Assembly: GCA_951812825.1 (NCBI GenBank)
Contig: OX638324.1
Coordinates: 1,177,141 to 1,241,140 of the forward strand
Direction: 5' to 3'
Source of the DNA: an uncultured Dehalococcoidia bacterium
GTDB lineage: Bacteria; Chloroflexota; Dehalococcoidia; Lucifugimonadales; GCA-2712585
Length of the DNA stretch: 64,000 nucleotides
In this document: piece after piece, positions 50,154 through 62,274 of the stretch
Layout of the letters: every line of letters starts with the position of its first letter
Numbering within the stretch: the first letter of the stretch is position 1
Made by a program: the position numbers and the translations under genes
The notes under the pieces: model-generated
Told to the model about the DNA's origin: nothing
Database searches by the model: none
The model's input: only the letters and a program-made list of their open reading frames with translations

Positions 50154-53100
50154 CTAGGGGACGATTATCCCTGCCTCGTTGGCGTAGACCCAGTAGGCTG
50201 CGCCGGTCTCGACCATGTCCGTGGAGCCCTCTCCAACGGAGAGCCTTACCAGCTTGCCTTCCAAGGATTCGTAGCCGTAGACAACTTCCGCGTCGATGTT
50301 GGCGAAGTAGTCCACCGCCAGAATCTCGGTCCCTGCCTCAGCCTGGTCGGCGTCTACCACACCTACCAGGTTCCAACCCTCGGTTACCGCGATGTGCGGC
50401 GGAGGCTGGAAGTCCGTTCCCTCTTGCAGTCCAACACTCACGTCCAGGACGCCGTCGGAGACGACCCAGTAGCCGTTCATCCCGTTGATGGTGGTCAGAT
50501 CGCCTCCCAGGGTGCCGTCGGCTCCTCGGGTGGCCGTCTGCCACAAACCAGTGGCGTTGTCAAAGGTCAGCACGGCCATGACGTCCTCGTTGCCCTCGCC
50601 TCCGAAGACCGCGTTTACGTCTCCGTCCGCGGGGTCCGCAGGGAAGGAGATGAGGTTCGGCCCGGGGTTCAGCGCAATCTCGTAGTCAGGCTTGTCCACC
50701 TTCTCGAACTCGTGACTGAACTCATCCTCGTTGCCAGCGGCGTCCATGACTTCGATGGTGAAGGTGTGTTCCCCGTTGGTCAGGTTCCCCGGCCTGTATA
50801 CGAACAGCACGTTGTCCCTGGTGATTACGTCGGCAGTCACGTCGTCCCCATTGAAGGTCGCGCTCATGAGAGTGACCGTGCCGCTGGTGTCGAAGTCAGT
50901 TGTTACCATGGAAGGATCTTCTGTGGCGGCGGAGGAGTCGTCATCCTCGGCCAGACCGTACTCCTTGCCTTCGTCGGCGAAGTCCGCCCGTACGAACGCA
51001 CCGGCGTTGGTCGTGGATCCCTCGGGCTTGAAGGCAGGAGCCTGGACTTCGTTGTCCACCTCGAAGAGGATGGCGCTGTCGTCGTCCGGGTCGTGCTTGT
51101 AATCACCAGTGGGCTCGTCATCGTCGTCCATCTGAGCGACGCCCATGGTGCCGGTGGTAGCCTCGAGCTTGAGTGCTCCGCTGCCCAGGTCGTTGCCGGA
51201 GACCATCACGTTGTAGAGACCGTCGTCGCCATCGGCATTGAAGCTGGGCGTGTAGGACCACTGATTGACGGCGCCCGTGGGACTGGCCGTACCTTCCGTA
51301 TCGTCTTGCAGAAGGTTGTTGGCGCCAACCTTGGTTATGGTCACCATGGGGTTGCCCGCGAGCCTTTCGTCCGACTCGATCATTATGGTGATCTCGCCAT
51401 CGGTGATGGGCCGGTCGCCCTCGGCGGTCCCCGTTACCGTTACGCTCAGCTTGGCGGGTATGCCGTCGTTGGCCGTTATCTCATCTTCGTCCCCGATGGG
51501 GTTGCCCGCCCTGTCCGTGAGAGACTCGTTCCCAACCGCAATGTCCGGCCTGTCGTTGGGGTCAAGCTCGTCCACGTCCAGGTAGACCTTGCTCCCGTCA
51601 CAGGTGACTCCGTTGGGGTTGCTTCCGTCGACCTCGAAGTCATCGGCGTCCACGCTGGAGCAGTCCAGGGCCTCGTTGAAGGCGACCACTATGCTGGTCC
51701 GCTTCGCGTCGGTGCCGGACTTCTCCGTGTCACCGTCGAGCCAGGTGCCCGTGTAGGTTTGGGTCTCGTCCAGCTCGGGAGAAGCCGCGTCCACGCGAAC
51801 CACGAAGGGATCGCAGCCTCTGCCCTCAATGTCATTATCCTCATCCTCGGCCACGATGGTGCCGTCAAGGGCAACGAGGGCTCCATCGGAATCGGTGATG
51901 TCAAGCCCCGCCGGGACGGCACACCTGGTGTCTCCGTCGGAGTCGCTGACTCCCACGTTCCCGGCCAGGTCGGTGGAGACCGCCCACCAGTGAATCTGGT
52001 ATTCGGATCCGGCGTTGGCCGCGTCCGCGTCCAGGTCGGATGCTCCTTCTTCTATGCTCACCGATGCGGTGTAGCCGCTGGTCGTTTCTTCCAGCTTCAG
52101 GTCGTCCCGCTCGTAGGCAATGGTCTCCCCAAGGGAGTTCCCTTCAATGGAATAGAGCCCGGCGAGGACGTATATGCTGGACGCGTCGTCCTTGTCTTCG
52201 CTGATGCCCGAGTCCGTGTCCTGCACGTCGAAGGAGACGGTGGGCTCATCCTCCCGACCGGCGGTCCCGCTGGCAGGCGCCATGTTGCTGAAGGAGGGGC
52301 TATCCACGTCCAGCGGTATGCTGGCGCTTCGGTTGCGACTCGGATCCGAGTCCACGTAGACAACCCTGACGGTGTCCCCCGCGTTGTTTACGGGGAGCGT
52401 TACCATGCCCATCCGGTCACTGATGCCAGCGCCGTCGCCCGAATCGGCCTGGGTGGCTACACAATCCTCCTCGGCGGAGTCGCATATCTCCAGCATGGCC
52501 GCAAACTTGCCGCTCCTGGCGGCCGTCTCCGACATAACAATGGAGATTCCCCCGGGGAAGGCATCGCTGCTTAACGTGACGCGGTTGTCTTCTTCGCCGT
52601 AGGCGGGGAGGGGCACGTTCAAGGTGAGGGTTGCTGTGCTTGCGATTTGGATAGCTACAACAGGAGGTGTCGCGCTAGCATCAGCATTAACGGGTCTGTA
52701 GCTGCGAACCGAAATATCTGCCGGGACATCGTCCGACGGATCATTAGGCGTGCCGCTATCGCTGAATTCCGTATCTATCCGGTATTCAAGAACAATGTCC
52801 GGTTCGGACGGCGTGCCTTTGGGAGTATTGGTGGCCCTGACAGCGGCCGCCCCAATGCTACCGTCGTTTTGATTATCCCTAAGATCCGCTGAAGCCATCG
52901 GAGTTATGCCGACGTCGTTAGCGTCAACTTTTCCGTCTCCGTTGGTGTCCAGGATGTCCAACCAGGTCCAGTCGCCAACGGCGTTGTCTGTATCGGCGGC
53001 GTTGAACGCTGTTGGTTCGACATCGGTAATGAATGACAAAGATACTTCACTATCGTCAGCCTGAGCCGTAAGAGTAGCAAGCCTCTTTTCGGAGGCGGCG

Positions 53101-53693
53101 TCTCTGCCGCTGATATCGTCCTGTTCGAAGATCTGGAACTCAAGGTGGGTGGCATTGACGGGATCGTTCGGCAGGGTCGCGACATTCAGAGTGCCGGCTT
53201 GAGTATTGAGAGTCAACTCTCCGGGTTCGATGGTAACCACCGTCTCAAAGGATTGGCGCATGGCGTCGCTTCTCCGAGGGTCATCAGCGGTGGTTTCTCC
53301 CGCATCCGCATCGAACTGATCGTAGTCCGCGGCCTCGCCGGAGCCATCGACAAAGGCGGTGAAGTCCTGATAGTTCACGTTTCCATCGCCGTTGGCGTCA
53401 GCCAGATTGGCCCAGTCCACGGTGTTCGCTTCGGTGTCCGTGGTCTTAGCGCCAACGGCGGCGGTGACCGTTCGCGTCGTGGGCTCATTCAGGTCCTGGT
53501 CCTCGACCTGAATCATGATGGCGTTGCCAGCGCCGCCGAGACCATTGAGGCTGAGGTAGCTGATTTCGTCCCCGTCGCCATCGAGGAACGATATCTCCCC
53601 TGCGTCAGCGGCGAAAGCGGGCATCGCCCACAGTAGCCCCAGTAGCAGGGTCAAAAGTATGCCAGGGATAAACCAAGTTGCTTTTTGTCTCAC
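50154..53693 (-). CDS. Large secreted surface protein, copy A (S-layer/adhesin-like)
   Basis: 1179 residues from the GTG at 53693. The signal peptide ends AMPAFA-AD near residue 29. Two dockerin-like calcium loops are visible, DANGDGNVNYQDFTAF (near 99) and LDTNGDGKVDANDVGI (near 248). The middle is a very acidic series of beta-sandwich-like segments with DTDSGISEDKDD and SVSTDLAGNVGVSDSDGD types. The C-terminus (about 1005-1179) has paired 'NPGPNLISFPADP' and 'GWNLVGVVDADQA' motifs, a likely cell-surface or assembly domain. I do not recognise a named family. The start overlaps an 18-codon leader ORF. Copy B at 54337-57831 is nearly identical except in short islands. Confidence 0.85.
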   Translation of the reverse strand: MRQKATWFIPGILLTLLLGLLWAMPAFAADAGEISFLDGDGDEISYLSLNGLGGAGNAIMIQVEDQDLNEPTTRTVTAAVGAKTTDTEANTVDWANLADANGDGNVNYQDFTAFVDGSGEAADYDQFDADAGETTADDPRRSDAMRQSFETVVTIEPGELTLNTQAGTLNVATLPNDPVNATHLEFQIFEQDDISGRDAASEKRLATLTAQADDSEVSLSFITDVEPTAFNAADTDNAVGDWTWLDILDTNGDGKVDANDVGITPMASADLRDNQNDGSIGAAAVRATNTPKGTPSEPDIVLEYRIDTEFSDSGTPNDPSDDVPADISVRSYRPVNADASATPPVVAIQIASTATLTLNVPLPAYGEEDNRVTLSSDAFPGGISIVMSETAARSGKFAAMLEICDSAEEDCVATQADSGDGAGISDRMGMVTLPVNNAGDTVRVVYVDSDPSRNRSASIPLDVDSPSFSNMAPASGTAGREDEPTVSFDVQDTDSGISEDKDDASSIYVLAGLYSIEGNSLGETIAYERDDLKLEETTSGYTASVSIEEGASDLDADAANAGSEYQIHWWAVSTDLAGNVGVSDSDGDTRCAVPAGLDITDSDGALVALDGTIVAEDEDNDIEGRGCDPFVVRVDAASPELDETQTYTGTWLDGDTEKSGTDAKRTSIVVAFNEALDCSSVDADDFEVDGSNPNGVTCDGSKVYLDVDELDPNDRPDIAVGNESLTDRAGNPIGDEDEITANDGIPAKLSVTVTGTAEGDRPITDGEITIMIESDERLAGNPMVTITKVGANNLLQDDTEGTASPTGAVNQWSYTPSFNADGDDGLYNVMVSGNDLGSGALKLEATTGTMGVAQMDDDDEPTGDYKHDPDDDSAILFEVDNEVQAPAFKPEGSTTNAGAFVRADFADEGKEYGLAEDDDSSAATEDPSMVTTDFDTSGTVTLMSATFNGDDVTADVITRDNVLFVYRPGNLTNGEHTFTIEVMDAAGNEDEFSHEFEKVDKPDYEIALNPGPNLISFPADPADGDVNAVFGGEGNEDVMAVLTFDNATGLWQTATRGADGTLGGDLTTINGMNGYWVVSDGVLDVSVGLQEGTDFQPPPHIAVTEGWNLVGVVDADQAEAGTEILAVDYFANIDAEVVYGYESLEGKLVRLSVGEGSTDMVETGAAYWVYANEAGIIVP

Positions 53694-53746
53694 TTCTCCT
53701 CCCTTTGCGTCTGAGTTTGAGGAACCGACCGGTGGTTATACGTCAT
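53690..53746 (-). CDS. 18-codon leader ORF overlapping copy A start
   Basis: The ATG at 53746-53744 follows AAGGAGG and encodes MTYNHRSVPQTQTQREEK. Its stop TGA overlaps the GTG of the surface protein (GTGA), and the GGGAGGAG encoding its last residues is the ribosome site of the big gene. This arrangement couples translation of the large protein to the leader peptide. The copy B leader at 57828-57884 differs by one residue (Q10R). Because the whole unit is duplicated, conservation between copies alone does not prove function. Confidence 0.6.
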   Translation of the reverse strand: MTYNHRSVPQTQTQREEK

Positions 53747-54075
53747 AGACCAACCTCCTTGTGTCTGATGCCTTGAGGGCGCCAGGGAGGGCCGGTGTTT
53801 CCAAGATGAACGGGTCCGTAATAGTGCATTGCTTCCCTCTCCTGGGACGTGGTTTCCGTAATGTTGGGGGGCTTGCATGGTGAATTGGGGCGTTGGGTGC
53901 GCGGGAAGGCTATCCCAAGGATAGGCCGCGCCGCAGGCGAGCCTGCGGAGGCGTCGAAGGGGACAGCGGCCCTTGCGTATGCCGTAGGTATGTATCTTTG
54001 CCTCTGGTAGGGTTTGGGATGGGCAAGCCTTTATTGGTCATGCGGTACTCTACACAACCCCCCTTGAGATTGTCA
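53747..54075 (-). promoter_or_regulatory. Long leader and promoter of copy A
   Basis: A consensus promoter, TTGACA (54076-54071), 18 bases, TAGAGT (54052-54047), lies about 300 bases upstream of the leader ORF, so the transcript would carry a long untranslated leader. A second -10-like TATAAT lies near 54160. Bases 53747-53892 are almost identical to 57885-58030 before copy B. No known riboswitch class was recognised. Confidence 0.5.
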
Positions 54076-54168
54076 AGTAGTGGGTCGGCCAAAATTCGGC
54101 GGATAATTGATGGGTTTTTGCGATGGTTTCTGGCCGTTTGTTCAATGGACGCGGGGGGTATTATACAG

Positions 54169-54207
54169 GGGTCACTGCGTGACGGCAAGCTGGGGTTGGG
54201 AAGGGCG
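54169..54207. repeat. Interspersed repeat family B, copy 2
   Basis: GTCACTGCGTGACGGCAAGC with a G/T-rich tail, matching 47797-47835 and 58081-58120. It lies close to a TATAAT on the minus strand. Confidence 0.6.
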
Positions 54208-54210
54208 AGA

Positions 54211-54240
54211 GGATGGATTCCCGCGGATGCGGGAATCACG
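54211..54240. repeat. REP-like palindrome family A, copy 2 (flipped core)
   Basis: GGATGGATTCCCGC, GGAT, GCGGGAAT and CACG. Compared with the other three copies the loop is the reverse complement, while the GGATGG left flank is unchanged. Confidence 0.7.
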
Positions 54241-54283
54241 AGGGGGCGAGGGAACAAGAGGAGGAGGGGAAGGGGATAATAGG

Positions 54284-54336: not shown

Positions 54337-57300
54337 CTAGGGGACGATTATCCCTGCCTCGTTGGCGTAGACCCAGTAGGCTGCGCCGGTCTCGACCATG
54401 TCCGTGGAGCCCTCTCCAACGGAGAGCCTTACCAGCTTGCCTTCCAGGGATTCGTAGCCGTAGACAACTTCCGCGTCGATGTTGGCGAAGTAGTCCACCG
54501 CCAGAATCTCGGTCCCTGCCTCAGCCTGGTCGGCGTCTACCACACCTACCAGGTTCCAACCCTCGGTTACCGCGATGTGCGGCGGAGGCTGGAAGTCCGT
54601 TCCCTCTTGCAGTCCGACACTCACGTCCAGGACGCCGTCGGAGACGACCCAGTAGCCGTTCATCCCGTTGATGGTGGTCAGATCGCCTCCCAGGGCGCCG
54701 TCGGCTCCTCGGGTGGCCGTCTGCCACAAACCGGTGGCGTTGTCAAAGGTCAGCACGGCCATGATGTCCTCGTTGCCCTCGCCTCCGAAGACCGCGTTTA
54801 CATCTCCGTCCGCGGGGTCCGCAGGGAAGGAGATGAGGTTCGGCCCGGGGTTCAGCGCAATCTCGTAGTCAGGCTTGTCCACCTTCTCGAACTCGTGGCT
54901 GAACTCATCCTCGTTGCCAGCGGCGTCCATGACTTCGATGGTGAAGGTGTGTTCCCCGTTGGTCAGGTTCCCAGGCCTGTATACGAACAGCACGTTGTCC
55001 CTGGTGATTACGTCGGCAGTCACGTCGTCCCCATTGAAGGTCGCGCTCATGAGAGTGACCCCGCCGCTGGTGTCGAAGTCGGTGTCGACTTCACCGGGGG
55101 TTACCGCGACAGCGCCGTTCTCGTCCAGACCGTACTCCTTGCCTTCGTCGGCGAAGTCCGCGCGTACGAACGCACCGGCGTTGGTCGTGGATCCCTCGGG
55201 CTTGAAGGCGGGAGCCTGGACTTCGTTGTCCACCTCGAAGAGGATGGCGCTGTCGTCGTCCGGGTCGTGCATGGGACGCCTGGGAATGCCATCGTCGCCC
55301 ACCGGAACGTCGCCCATGGTGCCGGCGGTGGCCTCGAGCTTGAGTGCTCCGCTGCCCAGGTCGTTGCCGGAGACCACGACGTTGTAGAGACCGTGGTCGT
55401 CATCGGCATTGAAGCCGCGCGTGTAGGACCACTGATTAACGGCGCCCGTGGGACTGGCCGTACCGGTGGCATTTGCATCCCCATACAGGACGTAGTCGAA
55501 GACAACCTTGGTTATGGTCACCATGGGATTGCCCGCGAGCCTTTCGTCCGACTCGATCATTATGGTGATCTCGCCATCGGTGATGGGCCGGTCGCCCTCG
55601 GCGGTCCCCGTTACGGTTACGCTCAGCTTGGCGGGTATACCGTCGTTGGCGGTTATCTCATCTTCGTCCCCGATGAGGTTGCCCGCCCTGTCCGTGAGGG
55701 ACTCGTTCCCAACTTCAATGTCCGGCCTGTCGTTCGGGTCAAGCTCGTCCACGTCCAGGTAGACCTTGTTGCCGTCACAGGTGACTCCGTTGGGGTTGCT
55801 TCCGTCGACCTCAAAGTCATCGGCGTCCACGCTGGAGCAGTCCAGGGCCTCGTTGAAGGCAACCACTATGCTGGTCCGCTTCGCGTCGGAGCCGGACTTC
55901 TCCGTGTCACCGTCCAGCCAGGTGCCCGTGTAGGTTTGGGTCTCGTCCAGCTCGGGAGAAGCCGCGTCCACGCGAACCACGAAGGGATCGCAGCCTCTGC
56001 CCACAGTTGTCACGTTGCCATCGTCGTCCTTGACCTCGGCCACGATGCCTGCGTCAAGGAGTAGGAGGGAGCCATCAGAATCGGTGGCGCTAAACCGGAA
56101 CGGGACAGCACACTCGGTATCTCCGTCGGAGTCGCTGACTCCCACGTTCCCGGCCAGGTCGGTGGAGACCGCCCACCAGTGAATCTGGTATTCGGATCCG
56201 GCGTTGGCCGCGTCCGCGTCCAGGTCGGATGCTCCTTCTTCTATGCTCACCGATGCGGTGTAGCCGCTGGTCGTTTCTTCCAGCTTCAGGTCGTCCCGCT
56301 CGTAGGCTATGGTCTCCCCAAGGGGGTTCCCTTCAATGGAATAGAGCCCCGCGAGGACGTATATGCTGGACGCGTCGTCCTTGTCTTCGCTGATCCCCGA
56401 GTCCGTGTCCTGCACGTCGAAGGAGACGGTGGGCTCATCCTCCCGACCGGCGGTCCCGCTGGCCGGGGCCAGATTGCTGAAGGAGGGGGCATCCACGTCC
56501 AGCGGTATGCTGGCCGTTCGGTTGCGACTCGGATCCGAGTCCGCGTAGACAACCCTGACGGTGTCTCCGGCGTTGTTCACGGGGAGCCTTACCATGCCCA
56601 TCCGGTCACTGATGCCAGTGCCGTCGCCCGAATCGCCCTGGGTGGCTACACAATGGGGGTGGGCGCATATCTGCAGCATGGCCGCAAACTTGCCGCTCCT
56701 GGCGGCCGTCTCCGACAGAACAACGGAGATTCCCCCGGGGAAGGCATCGCTGCTTACCGTGACGCGGTTGTCTTCCGAGCCGTAGGCCGGGAGGGGCACG
56801 TTCAAGGTGAGGGTTACATTTACCTCAACGTTGCCATAGGCTGTGACCGTCACTATTGCCAGGGTGTCGTCGGTATAGTCGTCCGGCGTGTCATTATCAT
56901 CGAAAGCCGCGGTTATGTCGTATTCGACCTCCAACACTTCGATACCACGTGCATTGACGGCCCTAATGGCAGCAGCGTCAAGGGTACCGTCGTTACTGTT
57001 ACCATTAAGGGTACTCGAATCTGCCACTGGGTTAACGCCGACGTCGTCACCATCCAGGTCACCGTCTCTGTTGGTGTCCAGGATGTCCAGCCAGGTCCAA
57101 ACCGTATCACTGACTCGATTCTGGTAGGTATCGGGCTTGGGCGGCGCGACGTCGGTAATGGAAGGAACAGCCAAGGTGCGAGATGCCTCCGCTGAACCCG
57201 AATCATTATAGAACCGCCTTTCCCAGGCGGCGTCTCTGCCGCCGATGACGTCCTGTTCGAAGATCTGGAACTCGATGTGGGTGGAATTGGCGGGATCGTT

Positions 57301-57831
57301 CGGCAGGATCGCGATATTCAGAGTGCCGGCTTGAGTATTGAGATTCAGATCTCCAGGTTGGATGGGAACCACCGTCTCAAAGGACTGGCGCTTGGCGTCG
57401 CTTCTCCGAGGGTCATCAGCGGTGGTTTCTCCCGCATCCCCATCGAACTGATCGTAGTCCGCGTCCGCGCCGGAGCCATCGATAAAGGCGGTGAAGTCCT
57501 GATAGTTCACGTTTCCATCGCCGTTGGCGTCAGCCAGATTGGCCCAGTCCACGGTGTTCGCTGGAGTCTCGGTGTCCGTGGTCTTATCGCCCCTGGCGGA
57601 GGTGATCGTTCGCGTCGTGGGCTCGTTCAGGTCCTGGTCCTCTACCTGAATCATGATGGCGTTGCCGGCGGCGCCGAGCCCCACGTGGCTGAGGTAGCTG
57701 ATTTCGTTCCCGTCGCCATCGAGGAACGATATCTCCCCTGCGTCAGCGGCGAAAGCGGGCATCGCCCACAGTAGCCCCAGTAGCAGGGTCAAAAGTATGC
57801 CAGGGATAAACCGGGTTGCTTTTTGTCTCAC
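54337..57831 (-). CDS. Large secreted surface protein, copy B (tandem paralogue)
   Basis: 1164 residues from the GTG at 57831, with the same signal peptide (one residue differs, W7R) and the same C-terminal 175 residues apart from single changes such as V/I and T/A. Calcium loops are DANGDGNVNYQDFTAF and LDTNRDGDLDGDDVGV. It diverges from copy A in islands near residues 200-355 and in short, length-changing patches (for example CAHPHC in place of CDSAEEDC, FDYVLYGDANA in place of GANNLLQDDTE, DENGAVAVTPGEVD in place of AEDDDSSAATEDPSMVT). Blocks between islands are nearly identical at the DNA level. It should be exported and Ca2+-stabilised at the cell surface. Confidence 0.85.
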   Translation of the reverse strand: MRQKATRFIPGILLTLLLGLLWAMPAFAADAGEISFLDGDGNEISYLSHVGLGAAGNAIMIQVEDQDLNEPTTRTITSARGDKTTDTETPANTVDWANLADANGDGNVNYQDFTAFIDGSGADADYDQFDGDAGETTADDPRRSDAKRQSFETVVPIQPGDLNLNTQAGTLNIAILPNDPANSTHIEFQIFEQDVIGGRDAAWERRFYNDSGSAEASRTLAVPSITDVAPPKPDTYQNRVSDTVWTWLDILDTNRDGDLDGDDVGVNPVADSSTLNGNSNDGTLDAAAIRAVNARGIEVLEVEYDITAAFDDNDTPDDYTDDTLAIVTVTAYGNVEVNVTLTLNVPLPAYGSEDNRVTVSSDAFPGGISVVLSETAARSGKFAAMLQICAHPHCVATQGDSGDGTGISDRMGMVRLPVNNAGDTVRVVYADSDPSRNRTASIPLDVDAPSFSNLAPASGTAGREDEPTVSFDVQDTDSGISEDKDDASSIYVLAGLYSIEGNPLGETIAYERDDLKLEETTSGYTASVSIEEGASDLDADAANAGSEYQIHWWAVSTDLAGNVGVSDSDGDTECAVPFRFSATDSDGSLLLLDAGIVAEVKDDDGNVTTVGRGCDPFVVRVDAASPELDETQTYTGTWLDGDTEKSGSDAKRTSIVVAFNEALDCSSVDADDFEVDGSNPNGVTCDGNKVYLDVDELDPNDRPDIEVGNESLTDRAGNLIGDEDEITANDGIPAKLSVTVTGTAEGDRPITDGEITIMIESDERLAGNPMVTITKVVFDYVLYGDANATGTASPTGAVNQWSYTRGFNADDDHGLYNVVVSGNDLGSGALKLEATAGTMGDVPVGDDGIPRRPMHDPDDDSAILFEVDNEVQAPAFKPEGSTTNAGAFVRADFADEGKEYGLDENGAVAVTPGEVDTDFDTSGGVTLMSATFNGDDVTADVITRDNVLFVYRPGNLTNGEHTFTIEVMDAAGNEDEFSHEFEKVDKPDYEIALNPGPNLISFPADPADGDVNAVFGGEGNEDIMAVLTFDNATGLWQTATRGADGALGGDLTTINGMNGYWVVSDGVLDVSVGLQEGTDFQPPPHIAVTEGWNLVGVVDADQAEAGTEILAVDYFANIDAEVVYGYESLEGKLVRLSVGEGSTDMVETGAAYWVYANEAGIIVP

Positions 57832-57884
57832 TTCTCCTCCCTTTGCGTCTGAGTTCGAGGAACCGACCGGTGGTTATATGTCAT
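57828..57884 (-). CDS. 18-codon leader ORF overlapping copy B start
   Basis: The ATG at 57884-57882 after AAGGAGG encodes MTYNHRSVPRTQTQREEK and ends in the GTGA overlap with copy B. An upstream one-base difference from copy A (CAAAGGAGG against CAAGGAGG) shifts any longer upstream frame, so only this short frame is shared by both copies. Confidence 0.55.
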   Translation of the reverse strand: MTYNHRSVPRTQTQREEK

Positions 57885-58080
57885 AGACCAACCTCCTTTG
57901 AGTCTGATGCCTTGAGGGCGCCAGGGAGGGCCGGTGTTTCCAAGATGAACGGGTCCGTAATAGTGCATTGCTTCCCTCTCCTGGGACGTGGTTTCCGTGA
58001 TGTTGAGGGGCTTGCATGGTGAATTGGGGTGTCGGTGCGGGGGAAATTATACAGTGTGTATGAGGGGAGGGGAAGGGAGT

Positions 58081-58120
58081 GGGTCACTGCGTGACGGCAG
58101 GTTTGGGGTTGGGCGTGGGG
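58081..58120. repeat. Interspersed repeat family B, copy 3
   Basis: GGGTCACTGCGTGACGGCAG with a tail ending GGGGTTGGGCGTGGGG, matching 47797-47835 and 54169-54207. Confidence 0.6.
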
Positions 58121-58142
58121 GGCTTCGGGGCGGCGGGGTTCT

Positions 58143-58179
58143 GGGGGGGTTGGGGGGGTTGGGGGGGTTGGGAAGGGGG
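58143..58179 (+). repeat. G-tract array, TT-separated G7 runs (G-quadruplex candidate)
   Basis: Three runs of seven G (58143-58149, 58152-58158, 58161-58167) are separated by TT, then GGG and GGGGG runs follow. Four or more G runs with 2-base loops fit an intramolecular G-quadruplex on the plus strand. The 9-base unit repeats exactly and could change length by slippage. Confidence 0.75.
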
Positions 58180-58182
58180 AGG

Positions 58183-58212
58183 GGATGGATTCCCGCATCC
58201 GCGGGAATGACG
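58183..58212. repeat. REP-like palindrome family A, copy 3
   Basis: The same 30 bases as 50054-50083 (hairpin arms ATTCCCGC and GCGGGAAT, loop ATCC). Confidence 0.75.
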
Positions 58213-58274
58213 GAGGGGGGTGGGTTCCTGCCTTAGCGGGCACAAGCCTTCGTTCGCAGGAACAAGGGGGGCGG

Positions 58275-58304
58275 TTGACACTGTGTTGGAGGCGGGGATA
58301 TACT
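58275..58304 (+). promoter_or_regulatory. Strong promoter for pyrG-tal-rho
   Basis: Consensus TTGACA (58275-58280), 18 bases, TATACT (58299-58304, five of six). It is the best-matching promoter on the plus strand and drives the housekeeping run starting at 58568. Confidence 0.75.
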
Positions 58305-58486: not shown

Positions 58487-58516
58487 GGATGGATTCCCGC
58501 CTCCGCGGGAATGACG
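58487..58516. repeat. REP-like palindrome family A, copy 4
   Basis: Hairpin arms ATTCCCGC and GCGGGAAT with loop CTCC, inside the leader of pyrG, about 50 bases before its start codon. Confidence 0.7.
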
Positions 58517-58567
58517 AAGAGGGGCGGGGGAGGGGGCACCCGCACTCGCGGGGGAACGGGGCGTGTT

Positions 58568-60271
58568 GTGAGCACTAAGTTCATTTTTGTGACGGGGGGA
58601 GTGGTGAGCGCCGTGGGGAAGGGCGTCAGTGTCGCGTCTATCGGGCGGATACTGAAGAGCCGGGGTATTTCCGTTTCAGTGATTAAGCTGGACCCGTACC
58701 TGAACGTGGACCCGGGGACAATGTCTCCGTACCAGCACGGGGAGGTGTTTGTGACGAAGGACGGCGGCGAGACGGATATGGACCTGGGGCACTACGAGCG
58801 GTTCATCGACATCGAGGTGACGCGTTCGTCGAATCTGACGGCGGGGCAGGTGTACCAGTCGTTGATTGCGAAGGAGCGTCGGGGGGATTTTCTGGGGGGG
58901 ACGATTCAGGCGGTGTCGCACGTTACGAATGAGATAAAGGGGAGGATACTTTCGCTGGCGGAGGAGTCGGGCGCGGAGGTGGTGGTGGTGGAGGTTGGGG
59001 GCACGGTAGGGGACATGGAGGGGCAGCCGTTTCTGGAGGCTATCCGGCAGATGCGGAAGGAGGTGGGACGGGAGAATGTCTTCTATATTCACGTGACTCT
59101 CTTACCTTATATATATGCGACGGGGGAGTTGAAGACTAAGCCGACGCAGCATTCGGTGCGGGACCTGCGGGCTATCGGGATTCAGCCGGACGCGATTATC
59201 TGCCGCAGCGACTTTGAGGTTTCCGAGGGGATCCGGGACAAGATTGCGTTGTTCTGCGACGTGGATAAGGATGCGGTGATTCCGCTTTTGACGGTGGATA
59301 CTATCTACCGGGTGCCGCTGATTCTGGAGGAGTGGCGGCTGGGGGACCTGCTGGCGTCTACGCTGAATCTGCGGGCGGAGCAGCGGGATATGGAGGGGTG
59401 GTCGGCGATGGTGGATCGGATGCGGACGCTGAACGGCCGGGTGCCGATTGCGCTGGTGGGGAAGTACGTGGAGTTGCAGGACAGTTATATTTCGGTAAAG
59501 GAGGCGCTGCAGCACGCGGCGTTGCATCACGGGCAGGAGGTGGAAGTGCAGTGGGTGCACGCGGAACAGGTGGAGGCGGAGGGTCCGGAGGGGCTTTTGG
59601 CGTCGGCGTGCGGGATTGTGGTGCCGGGGGGGTTCGGGTCGAGGGGGGTGGAGGGGATGATTTCGACGGCGCAGTACGCGCGGGAGAACGGGATTCCGTA
59701 CCTGGGGCTGTGCCTGGGGTTGCAGGTGATGGTGGTGGAGTTCGCACGGAATGTGCTGCGGATGAAGGGGGCGCATTCTTACGAGGTGGACCCGGATTGC
59801 GCGGACCCGGTGGTGCATTTTATGCCGGAGCAGCAGAATGTGACGAATATGGGGGGTACGATGCGGCTGGGGAATTATCCGTGTGTGCTGGTGGAGGATA
59901 GTCTGGCGCACCGGGCGTACGGAGAGGCGGAGGTGTGGGAGCGTCACCGGCACCGGTTTGAGCTGAATAACGATTATCGCGAACGTCTGGAGGGGGCGGG
60001 GATGAGGGCCAGCGGGCTTTCGCCGGACCGTCGGCTGGTGGAGATAACGGAGGTGGAGGGGCACCCGTTTATGCTGGGGGTGCAGTTTCATCCGGAGTTC
60101 CGGTCTAGGCCGCACCGACCCCACCCGCTGGTGAGCGAGTTTGTGGGGACGGCGATGAAGACCCTGCGGGAGGGGAGTCAGCCTTCGCTACCGCTGGGGG
60201 AGGATGCGATGACGATTCCCCGGAGGCCGCCGCATTTCAATGGGGGGAATTTCAGGGGTCAGAGGATATGA
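58568..60271 (+). CDS. pyrG: CTP synthase
   Basis: 567 residues from the GTG at 58568 ([20 protein letters not shown]). The synthetase domain shows [40 protein letters not shown]. The glutaminase domain shows the oxyanion [16 protein letters not shown], the nucleophile Cys in [18 protein letters not shown], and the His/Glu in [13 protein letters not shown]. It makes CTP from UTP, ATP and glutamine. An in-frame extension upstream is Gly/Arg-rich, covers a palindromic repeat, and is rejected. The C-terminal tail after the glutaminase ([20 protein letters not shown]) is a slight extension. Confidence 0.96.
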
Positions 60272-60927
60272 AGCTATTTGTGGATACGGCAGACGTGGAC
60301 GAGGTGCGGCGGGCCGCTCGGCTGGGGGTGGTGTCCGGCGTGACGACGAATCCTTCTCTGGCGGCGCAGGCGGGAGTGTCGGGGATGGAGGGGTACCGGG
60401 CGGCGGTGGCGGAGATCGCTTCGATTGTGGACGGGCCGATTTCGATTGAGGTGGTGAGCGAGGACGTGGAGGGGATGATTACGGAGGGGAAGGAGTACGC
60501 GACCTGGGCGCCAACGCCGTGGGTGAAGCTGCCAAGTACGGCGGCGGGGTTCGAGGCGATGAAGGCATTGTCGGACGAGGGGATTGAGATCAACCAGACG
60601 CTGTGCTTTTCGGTGAACCAGGCGCTGCTTGGGGCGCAGGCGGGCGCGGCGGCGGTGAGTCCCTTTGTGGGGCGCGTGGACGACACGGGACAGCGGGGGA
60701 TGGACCTGGTGGAGGAGATTGTGTCGATTTATCGGAATTACGGAATCAGGACGCAGGTGCTGGCGGCAAGCATACGTCACCCACTGCACTGCGTGGAGGC
60801 AGCAAGGGCGGGGGCGCATATTGCGACGGTGCCGTGCGCGGTGCTGGAGCAGATGGTGAAGCACCCGCTGACAACGGTGGGGGTGGAGCGGTTTCGCCAG
60901 GACTGGCAGAGGGCCAGCGGCAGCTGA
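60268..60927 (+). CDS. tal: Transaldolase, short (fructose-6-phosphate aldolase-like) form
   Basis: 219 residues, the short TalC/Fsa class. [36 protein letters not shown] is the family start. ISIEVVSEDVEGMI, the Lys in WVKLPSTAAGFEAMKAL (Schiff base), INQTLCFSVNQALLGAQAGAAAVSPFVGRVDD and VLAASIRHPLHCVEAA follow. It transfers dihydroxyacetone units in the pentose phosphate pathway. The ATG overlaps the pyrG stop by four bases, so they are co-translated. Aldolase-only activity cannot be excluded. Confidence 0.93.
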   Translation: MKLFVDTADVDEVRRAARLGVVSGVTTNPSLAAQAGVSGMEGYRAAVAEIASIVDGPISIEVVSEDVEGMITEGKEYATWAPTPWVKLPSTAAGFEAMKALSDEGIEINQTLCFSVNQALLGAQAGAAAVSPFVGRVDDTGQRGMDLVEEIVSIYRNYGIRTQVLAASIRHPLHCVEAARAGAHIATVPCAVLEQMVKHPLTTVGVERFRQDWQRASGS

Positions 60928-60975
60928 GGCGACGGTTCAGAGTGCCTCAGCGGAGCAAAAATCTTTGGAAAGAAT

Positions 60976-62274
60976 GTGATCCAAGTGTCCCCTAAACCGA
61001 CGTTAGACGTTTCAGAACTGGAAAGGAAGAGCAAGGAGGAGCTGTTGGACATTGCCCAGCAGATGGGCATGGAAAACGGCAACGCGCTCACTTCGCTCCG
61101 CAAGGAGGACGTGGTGGTGCGGATTGCCCACAGGTTCCCGGACCAGCACCGGCTGAGAGGGTCGGGGGTGCTGGAGCTGATGAGCGACGGGTACGGGTTC
61201 CTCCGGCACACAGGCTTGAAGCCGGGGCCGGGGGATATCTACGTGTCGCAGTCGCAGATCCGGCGGTTCGGGCTGAGGTGCGGGGATACGGTGGCGGGAG
61301 GCGTCCGCTCGCCCAAGGGAGGGGAGCGGTACTTCGGGATGACGCGGGTTGATACGGTCAACGAGCTTACGCCGCCCCAGGCGCGGTCGCGGCCGACCTT
61401 CGAGGAGTTGACGCCCGTATTCCCGGATCAGCAGATAACGCTGGAGACCACCCCGGATAACCTGACGACGCGGATGATAGACCTCTTCTCTCCCATAGGC
61501 CGCGGCCAGCGGGGGCTTATCGTGTCGCCGCCCAAGGCGGGGAAGACAACGATATTGAAGCACGTGGCCAGCGGGGTGACGGCGAACTTCCCGGACATCC
61601 ACATAATGGTGGTGCTCATCGGGGAGCGGCCAGAGGAGGTGACGGACATGCGCCGCTCGGTGAAGGGGGAGGTCTTTGCTTCCACCTTCGACGAGTCGGT
61701 GGAGGACCAGGTGCGGCTGGCGGATCTTGCGCTGGACCGGGCGAAGCGGCTGGTGGAGTCGGGCAAGGACGTGCTGATACTGATGGACAGCATCACGCGA
61801 GCCACGCGGGCCTATAACCTGGCGCTGCCCAGCAGCGGACGTACGCTTTCGGGAGGCATCGACCCGGTGGCGCTCTATCCGCCCAAGAAGTTCTTCGGAG
61901 CGGCCCGGAACGTGGAGTTCGGGGGTAGCTTGACCATCATCGCCAACTGCCTGGTAGACACGGGCAGTCGCATGGACGAGGTGATTTACGAGGAGTTCAA
62001 GGGCACGGGGAACATGGAGCTTCACCTGGACAGGAAGCTGGCGGAGAAGCGCATCTTCCCCGCCATAGACATCGGCCGAAGCAGCACCCGTAGGGAAGAG
62101 TTGATGTTCGACGCGAAGATGGTGAAGAACATCTGGCTGCTGCGGCGCATCGTGGGCCTGCTGGTGCACGAGTCGGGCAACTTCACCGACGGCATCGAGC
62201 GGATACTGGAACGGCTCTCCCAAAGCAAAAGTAACGCTGAATTCCTGGCGCGGCTGGCCAAGGACCCCAGCTAA
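60976..62274 (+). CDS. rho: Transcription termination factor Rho
   Basis: 432 residues from a GTG. The N-terminal helix bundle is [33 protein letters not shown], and the RNA-binding cold-shock domain is [45 protein letters not shown]. The ATPase has [19 protein letters not shown] (P loop), [30 protein letters not shown] (Walker B) and [22 protein letters not shown]. It is a hexameric RNA helicase that ends transcription. Rho lies 48 bases after the transaldolase gene. Confidence 0.96.

Follow-up and report, generated by a model that had tools for sequence, protein, structure and literature searches.

A candidate split leader ahead of tandem genes for large, probably S-layer-like proteins in an uncultured Dehalococcoidia bacterium

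The tandem surface-protein genes A and B of an uncultured Dehalococcoidia bacterium are each preceded by a short open reading frame (ORF) of 18 codons, here called uORF2. We consider it probable that the leader of these genes is split, that uORF2 represents its downstream part, and that such a leader brings ribosomes to the start codon of a gene for a large, probably S-layer-like protein. The window analyzed is a stretch of 64,000 nucleotides, in which both genes lie on the minus strand (Table 1). An earlier note had reported that an SD and an ATG open 18 codons whose TGA overlaps the GTG of the surface gene in both copies. Its positions and peptides proved exact, and the observation of the 18-codon leader is confirmed; the interpretation given there is partly supported.

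In the explanation that we favor, relatives have a single leader ORF with its own SD, starting about 130 to 150 nt upstream and open up to the gene start, and the translation of leader and surface gene would be coupled in them. In the lineage of the window, a frame change would have broken the long ORF, and a second SD-ATG would have taken over its last 18 codons. Copy A would then be a relay, in which the overlap of the uORF1 TGA with the uORF2 ATG is followed by that of the uORF2 TGA with the GTG, and copy B would be a leader fused again. Leader ribosomes would terminate at the gene start and then either re-initiate or hold it open, and the conserved uORF1 peptide might slow or stall the ribosome, adding a pause that tunes expression of the surface gene. 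The ORFs, the overlaps, their conservation, the selection on uORF1 in relatives and the promoter-like sites are read directly from the sequence; translation of the leader ORFs, the importance of their coupling and the order of evolutionary events are what we infer from them. Coupling is the best-supported part of the mechanism and would work as PMC12548453 describes for NTGA pairs and short uORFs.

The tandem genes and their leaders

Table 1. Features of the leaders and surface genes A and B in the window
Feature	Position (strand)	Description
uORF2, copy A	53690..53746 (-)	18 codons, MTYNHRSVPQTQTQREEK; ATG at 53746, TGA ending at 53690
SD2 of uORF2, copy A	53754..53760 (-)	AAGGAGG; predicted to pair with CCTCC of uORF1
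SD of surface gene A	53698..53704 (-)	AGGGAGG, within the final uORF2 codons
Surface gene A	50154..53693 (-)	1179 aa; GTG start at 53693; signal-peptide-like N terminus; weak Ig-like matches
uORF1, copy A	53743..53829 (-)	28 codons, MHYYGPVHLGNTGPPWRPQGIRHKEVGL; own TGA overlaps the uORF2 ATG
Promoter-like site, copy A	54047..54076 (-)	TTGACA-18-TAGAGT; hexamers and spacing identical in G001
uORF2, copy B	57828..57884 (-)	18 codons, MTYNHRSVPRTQTQREEK; arrangement as in copy A
Leader of copy B as a single ORF	57828..57968 (-)	46 codons; 1-base insertion fuses uORF1 to uORF2
Surface gene B	54337..57831 (-)	1164 aa; GTG start

A and B encode exported proteins of about 1170 aa each. Beyond the signal-peptide-like N-terminal stretch, the proteins gave only weak Ig-like matches; an NCBIfam search with the surface protein found no family, and a PDB profile search with its C-terminal domain returned one match, to a 60-residue stretch of 2yn3. 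Given how large they are, that they are exported and what has been published on SAR202 (PMC5395668 and PMC11994032), we suggest that the proteins are probably S-layer-like. Homologues of the surface gene were found in 45 of the 60 genomes searched, its own genome counted; within the order, 150 of 250 genomes have one. Among named relatives, SAR202/Dehalococcoidia MAGs are the nearest, and a scan of genome contigs with the C-terminal domain, which served solely for naming the group, gave nine loci, all in SAR202/Chloroflexi/Dehalococcoidia MAGs. The leader set comprised 72 of 80 retrieved stretches together with A and B (74 leaders), and the leader of G003 (L057) was added afterwards (75). Excluded from it were L056, L058 (the third paralogue), L061, L063, L089, L144 and L150 (contig ends, a wrong place or no usable start).

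The last uORF2 codons also hold the ribosome site of the surface gene, as the earlier note had stated and as is the case in copy A. In both copies a further SD-led ORF, uORF1, starts about 28 codons before uORF2. The note had also described a one-base indel that left the 18-codon frame as the only one shared by the two copies. The indel is real and lies just upstream, but in copy B it makes the 18-codon frame the last part of an ORF of 46 codons. The 18-codon frame is not the sole one of importance either, as the separate uORF1 is the deeper conserved element.

The leader of copy B (window 57832-58300) is 95% identical to that of copy A (window 53694-54080) over 238 bases, and the homology upstream of the two genes stops short of the promoter of A. 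Promoter-like sites were found upstream in 54 of 70 leaders, compared with 1.25 expected from shuffled sequences, five of the 75 leaders having been dropped for doubtful starts. The promoter scan of the leaders found no TTGACA-type promoter for copy B, and this copy may be weakly expressed or silent. Two TTGACA promoters were seen in several leaders (for example, in G247, G053 and G080), about 350 to 390 and 200 bases 5′ of the start. A palindromic repeat, GATTCCCGC...GCGGGAAT, was noticed by eye 5′ of both copies (window 54190-54245 and 58180-58245). The third paralogue, L058 (G000:C1:1892520-1895879), is an open frame of 1443 aa about 0.66 Mb away and is without an obvious SD-started leader. 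The surface genes adjoin pyrG, transaldolase and rho (window 58511-62274), and homologues elsewhere (L055, L057 and L068) are linked to pyrG, transaldolase and rho in G003, to rho in G002 and to pyrG in G023, in differing arrangements; all these gene names were assigned by eye.

Conservation of the 18-codon ORF and of the GTGA overlap

uORF2 with the GTGA overlap is present in five gene copies from four species and two genera (A and B of the window, G001, G002 and G003). It has 18 codons in the congeners G001 and G002 and 19 in the sister-genus genome G003, where the change is an in-frame one of 3 bases; the peptides across the species are MTYNHRSVPQTQTQREEK, MTDTGRLVLETQIDREAK, MTDGSGFNLEIQLHGEEK and MTVLDRAVFPETLEEGGLK. 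The comparison of orthologues that the earlier note had called for thus recovered the frame in these three genomes, but uORF2 is absent from G004 and G005, which represent two other genera of the window's family, and from most of the order. The agreement between A and B says little, because they are recent duplicates. Among A, G001 and G002, 23 of 32 columns are identical in the SD2-ATG2 block and 12 of 15 in the SD3-GTGA block, compared with 15 of 36 in the body of uORF2. SD2 is conserved as AAGGAGG or TAGGAGG, and the leader thus has its own initiation signals. The synonymous bias that had been looked for in uORF2 is not there (pN of 0.33 and pS of 0.32 for A, B, G001 and G002), and the 18-codon ORF was rejected as a conserved peptide. 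Since the start and end blocks are better kept and there is no synonymous bias, selection, if any, would act on starting and ending at these points and not on the peptide.

It had also been proposed that the leader is coupled to the surface gene by GTGA and could gate the translation of a very abundant protein. The overlap itself is no evidence of coupling, as it is family-wide and is present even without a leader: in the order, GTG was called as the start in 63 and GTGA in 61 of 74 cases, counts that come from automatic calls of which a few are probably wrong, and the GTGA starts include many leaders without an SD-preceded ORF. The SD of the surface gene is typically AAGGGGGTAG, immediately 5′ of the start. 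The gating proposal draws its support from a short frame with its own SD that four species of two genera keep coupled to the start of the gene, from the initiation signals as the best-conserved part and from a similar 18-codon bridging ORF in the lineage of G029. Among the 75 leaders, 7 have a short bridging ORF of 12 to 25 codons, namely, the five uORF2 copies and those of G029 and G036. Over half of the 74 leaders have no ORF that starts behind an SD and extends as far as the gene, which means that the gene can manage without one.

These counts also bear on the alternative that the 18-codon ORF is accidental, the product of a recently duplicated 5′ UTR, a GTGA common to the family and chance openness in a few species. 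The presence of GTGA irrespective of a leader, the near equality of pN and pS and the restriction of uORF2 to four species would all fit such an origin. However, the SD2-ATG2 block is conserved, the length change in G003 keeps the frame, the remaining two reading frames are closed in all five copies and G029 has a separate bridging ORF; we regard an accident as quite unlikely.

The conserved uORF1 peptide of related families

At the position of uORF1, leaders of other families encode peptides such as MDLSSIFLVPPRADPSRASP... (G018), MDSSSYFLIPARADPSLLPRSGP... (G080), MHSSPYLSRADPSRTHR... (G029) and MASPASAPRAGPVPAG... (G247), which have some 20 conserved residues in common, M-[DHY]-x-S-S ... 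R-A-[DGS]-P-S. The motif RA[DGS]P (RADP, RAGP or RASP) was found within residues 6 to 18 in 15 of 74 leaders, in which 52 SD-preceded ATGs were scanned. The control sequence, 664,480 bases from loci L054-L093 and the window (both strands, leaders masked), contains 705 SD-preceded ATGs; none of them is followed by the motif, and shuffled sets gave 0.01 each. The strict pattern SD-ATG-RADPS had 11 matches in 247 genomes; in seven of them the motif is in frame, all at the surface-gene locus, and the other four have it in a different frame from the ATG (frames read by eye). A looser pattern, SD-ATG-RA[D/G/S/N]P, matched 291 of 393 genomes of the class and was uninformative, as chance and coding matches swamp it.

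Substitutions point to selection at the protein level. Between the congeneric G018 and G053, codons 2 to 20 show 11 synonymous changes and 1 non-synonymous change; with the motif omitted, Sd is 10/12.2 and Nd is 1/29.8 (p=4.7e-7). Selection on the uORF1 peptide was also detected for G080/G081 with the motif omitted (p=0.0037) and for codons 2 to 20 of G247/G248 (p=0.028). The sequences behind the RADPS pN/pS figures were picked by the motif, and the motif-omitting tests are the fair ones. Beyond about codon 20 no constraint is left, and the tail varies freely while the ORF continues to 42 to 53 codons. By these counts, strong protein-level selection is acting on the first 20 or so uORF1 codons in the relatives; the conservation concerns the peptide and not just the RNA.

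Strong purifying selection on codons 2 to 20 in congeneric pairs is likewise what one would see if uORF1 encoded a small protein with a function in trans, its location being ordinary operon structure. We consider this very improbable, as conservation ends near codon 20 of a much longer ORF whose tail is free to change and as the in-frame matches to the strict pattern are confined to the surface-gene locus.

In the genus of the window, A and B have NTGPP in the motif region, G001 has KPDPS and G002 has RADPS; RADPS is lost in A, B, G003 and G005. A comparison of the uORF1 of A with its relatives found no sign of protein-level constraint, and, as far as these sequences tell, selection on the uORF1 peptide is relaxed in the genus. 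An Rfam search with the leader region, taken up to E 1, gave no match.

In other families of the SAR202 type, a group of ocean bacteria, uORF1 mostly continues uninterrupted up to the start of the surface gene, in line with the split leader that we propose. In 11 genera outside the two of the window, a uORF1 was found that carries the motif or something close to it; nine of these have no stop in frame between motif and gene start, compared with 5.49 expected from dinucleotide shuffles, in a test with one sequence per genus that gives only P=0.019. The leader ORF of motif-bearing relatives ends mostly at positions -6 to +14 relative to the gene start. There are two exceptions in which uORF1 ends early. 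In G004, no bridging ORF was found; in G029, a second 18-codon ORF is GTGA-joined to uORF1 and ends 3 bases before the gene. Two lineages thus appear to bridge a broken leader by a short second ORF.

RNA pairing, known leader systems and significance

It is conceivable that the leader works by attenuation of the erm type. The DPS codons of uORF1 would hold SD2 in a helix or serve as the 5′ side of a hairpin resembling a terminator, and a ribosome that occupies these codons, or stalls there, would free SD2 or block the hairpin and turn the gene on. Local folds of all five copies predict pairing of SD2 with CCTC(C) of uORF1, and RNAalifold recovers this helix too; the fraction of upstream shuffles that fold SD2 as tightly is 0.033 for A, 0.083 for B, 0.357 for G001, 0.173 for G002 and 0.007 for G003. 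Of 67 leaders (7 of the 74 were dropped), 21 carry a terminator-like hairpin with a T-rich tail 5′ of the start, compared with 5.0 expected, and several of these hairpins sit right at or after the motif. However, no pair of the SD2 helix shows changes on both sides, SD2 is fully open in the full-length fold of G001 and the hairpin is missing in 8 of 20 uORF1 leaders scanned. Pairing of the RADPS codons with the SD of the gene itself was rejected as a general mechanism, being strong in B alone and weaker in G015 among the 19 leaders folded, and folding with a ribosome placed on uORF1 did not consistently unmask that SD. Taken together, we think attenuation of this kind unlikely. Pairing of the DPS/PP codons with SD2 in the window's family would give an erm-like switch, for which the support is weak, and transcription attenuation is possible even without a leader ORF.

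In erm/cat-type translational attenuators, the nascent chain is very short and leader codons pair with the downstream SD. The leaders described here are similar in their very short chain, in the predicted SD pairing and in the Asp codon of the RADP leaders, which is placed much as the Asp-10 at which ermBL stalls (PMC9178857). They differ in that there is no known inducer and no resistance gene, in the extra relay ORF and in the weakly supported pairing. Coupled short uORFs and synthetic bicistronic designs share with them an SD-started short ORF, a stop over the next start and a second SD inside; PMC12548453 describes NTGA-coupled short uORFs and such designs, in which the ORF may merely deliver the ribosome. 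Unlike these, the leader of the window is a two-step relay from uORF1 through uORF2 to the gene, and in the relatives the N-terminal peptide of the leader is itself conserved.

That the peptide is conserved hints at a pause in addition to coupling, and its core resembles that of SecM. In PMC10987492, RAGP is the SecM arrest core, RADP and RASP are listed from uORFs that cluster with it, and TGPP is on the motif list. The leaders of the relatives thus resemble SecM/RAPP-like arrest peptides (PMC10987492 and PMC12992588) in the R-A-[DGS]-P core and in the position upstream of a gene; the uORF1 of the window carries the listed TGPP, and its copies are without RA[DGS]P. PMC10987492 sets as its criterion a localization signal and, after it, a spacer longer than 30 residues. 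Here, in contrast, 8 to 12 residues precede the R and 6 to 37 follow the P, so the motif is N-terminal and not C-terminal; the downstream gene encodes a surface protein and is not secA, secDF or yidC, and stalling is putative. Because of the signal, the spacer, the C-terminal position and the downstream gene, we do not file the leader with the SecM/RAPP-like family. A narrower version of our proposal, possible but doubtful, is that in SAR202-type Chloroflexota a very short SecM-type R-A-[D/G/S]-P leader, with its R 9 to 13 residues in, pauses the ribosome within the 5′ UTR and hands it to the envelope gene; in the lineage of the window the core would have decayed, and the coupling half would have been kept as a separate ORF, split or fused in the tandem copies. 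The RA[DGS]P leader peptide of the relatives is the more interesting object, its stalling being hypothetical.

In PMC11994032, SAR202 bacteria are described as peptidoglycan-free with an S-layer cell wall, and their cultivation has been reported (PMC10444878). In the collection of papers searched, none dealt with such a leader at an envelope-protein gene. A conserved leader at a probable envelope-protein gene would constitute a regulatory element for that protein, and the leader may set the amount of envelope protein made. If the pausing proposal is true, the SecM-type core would extend to leaders too short for export sensing.
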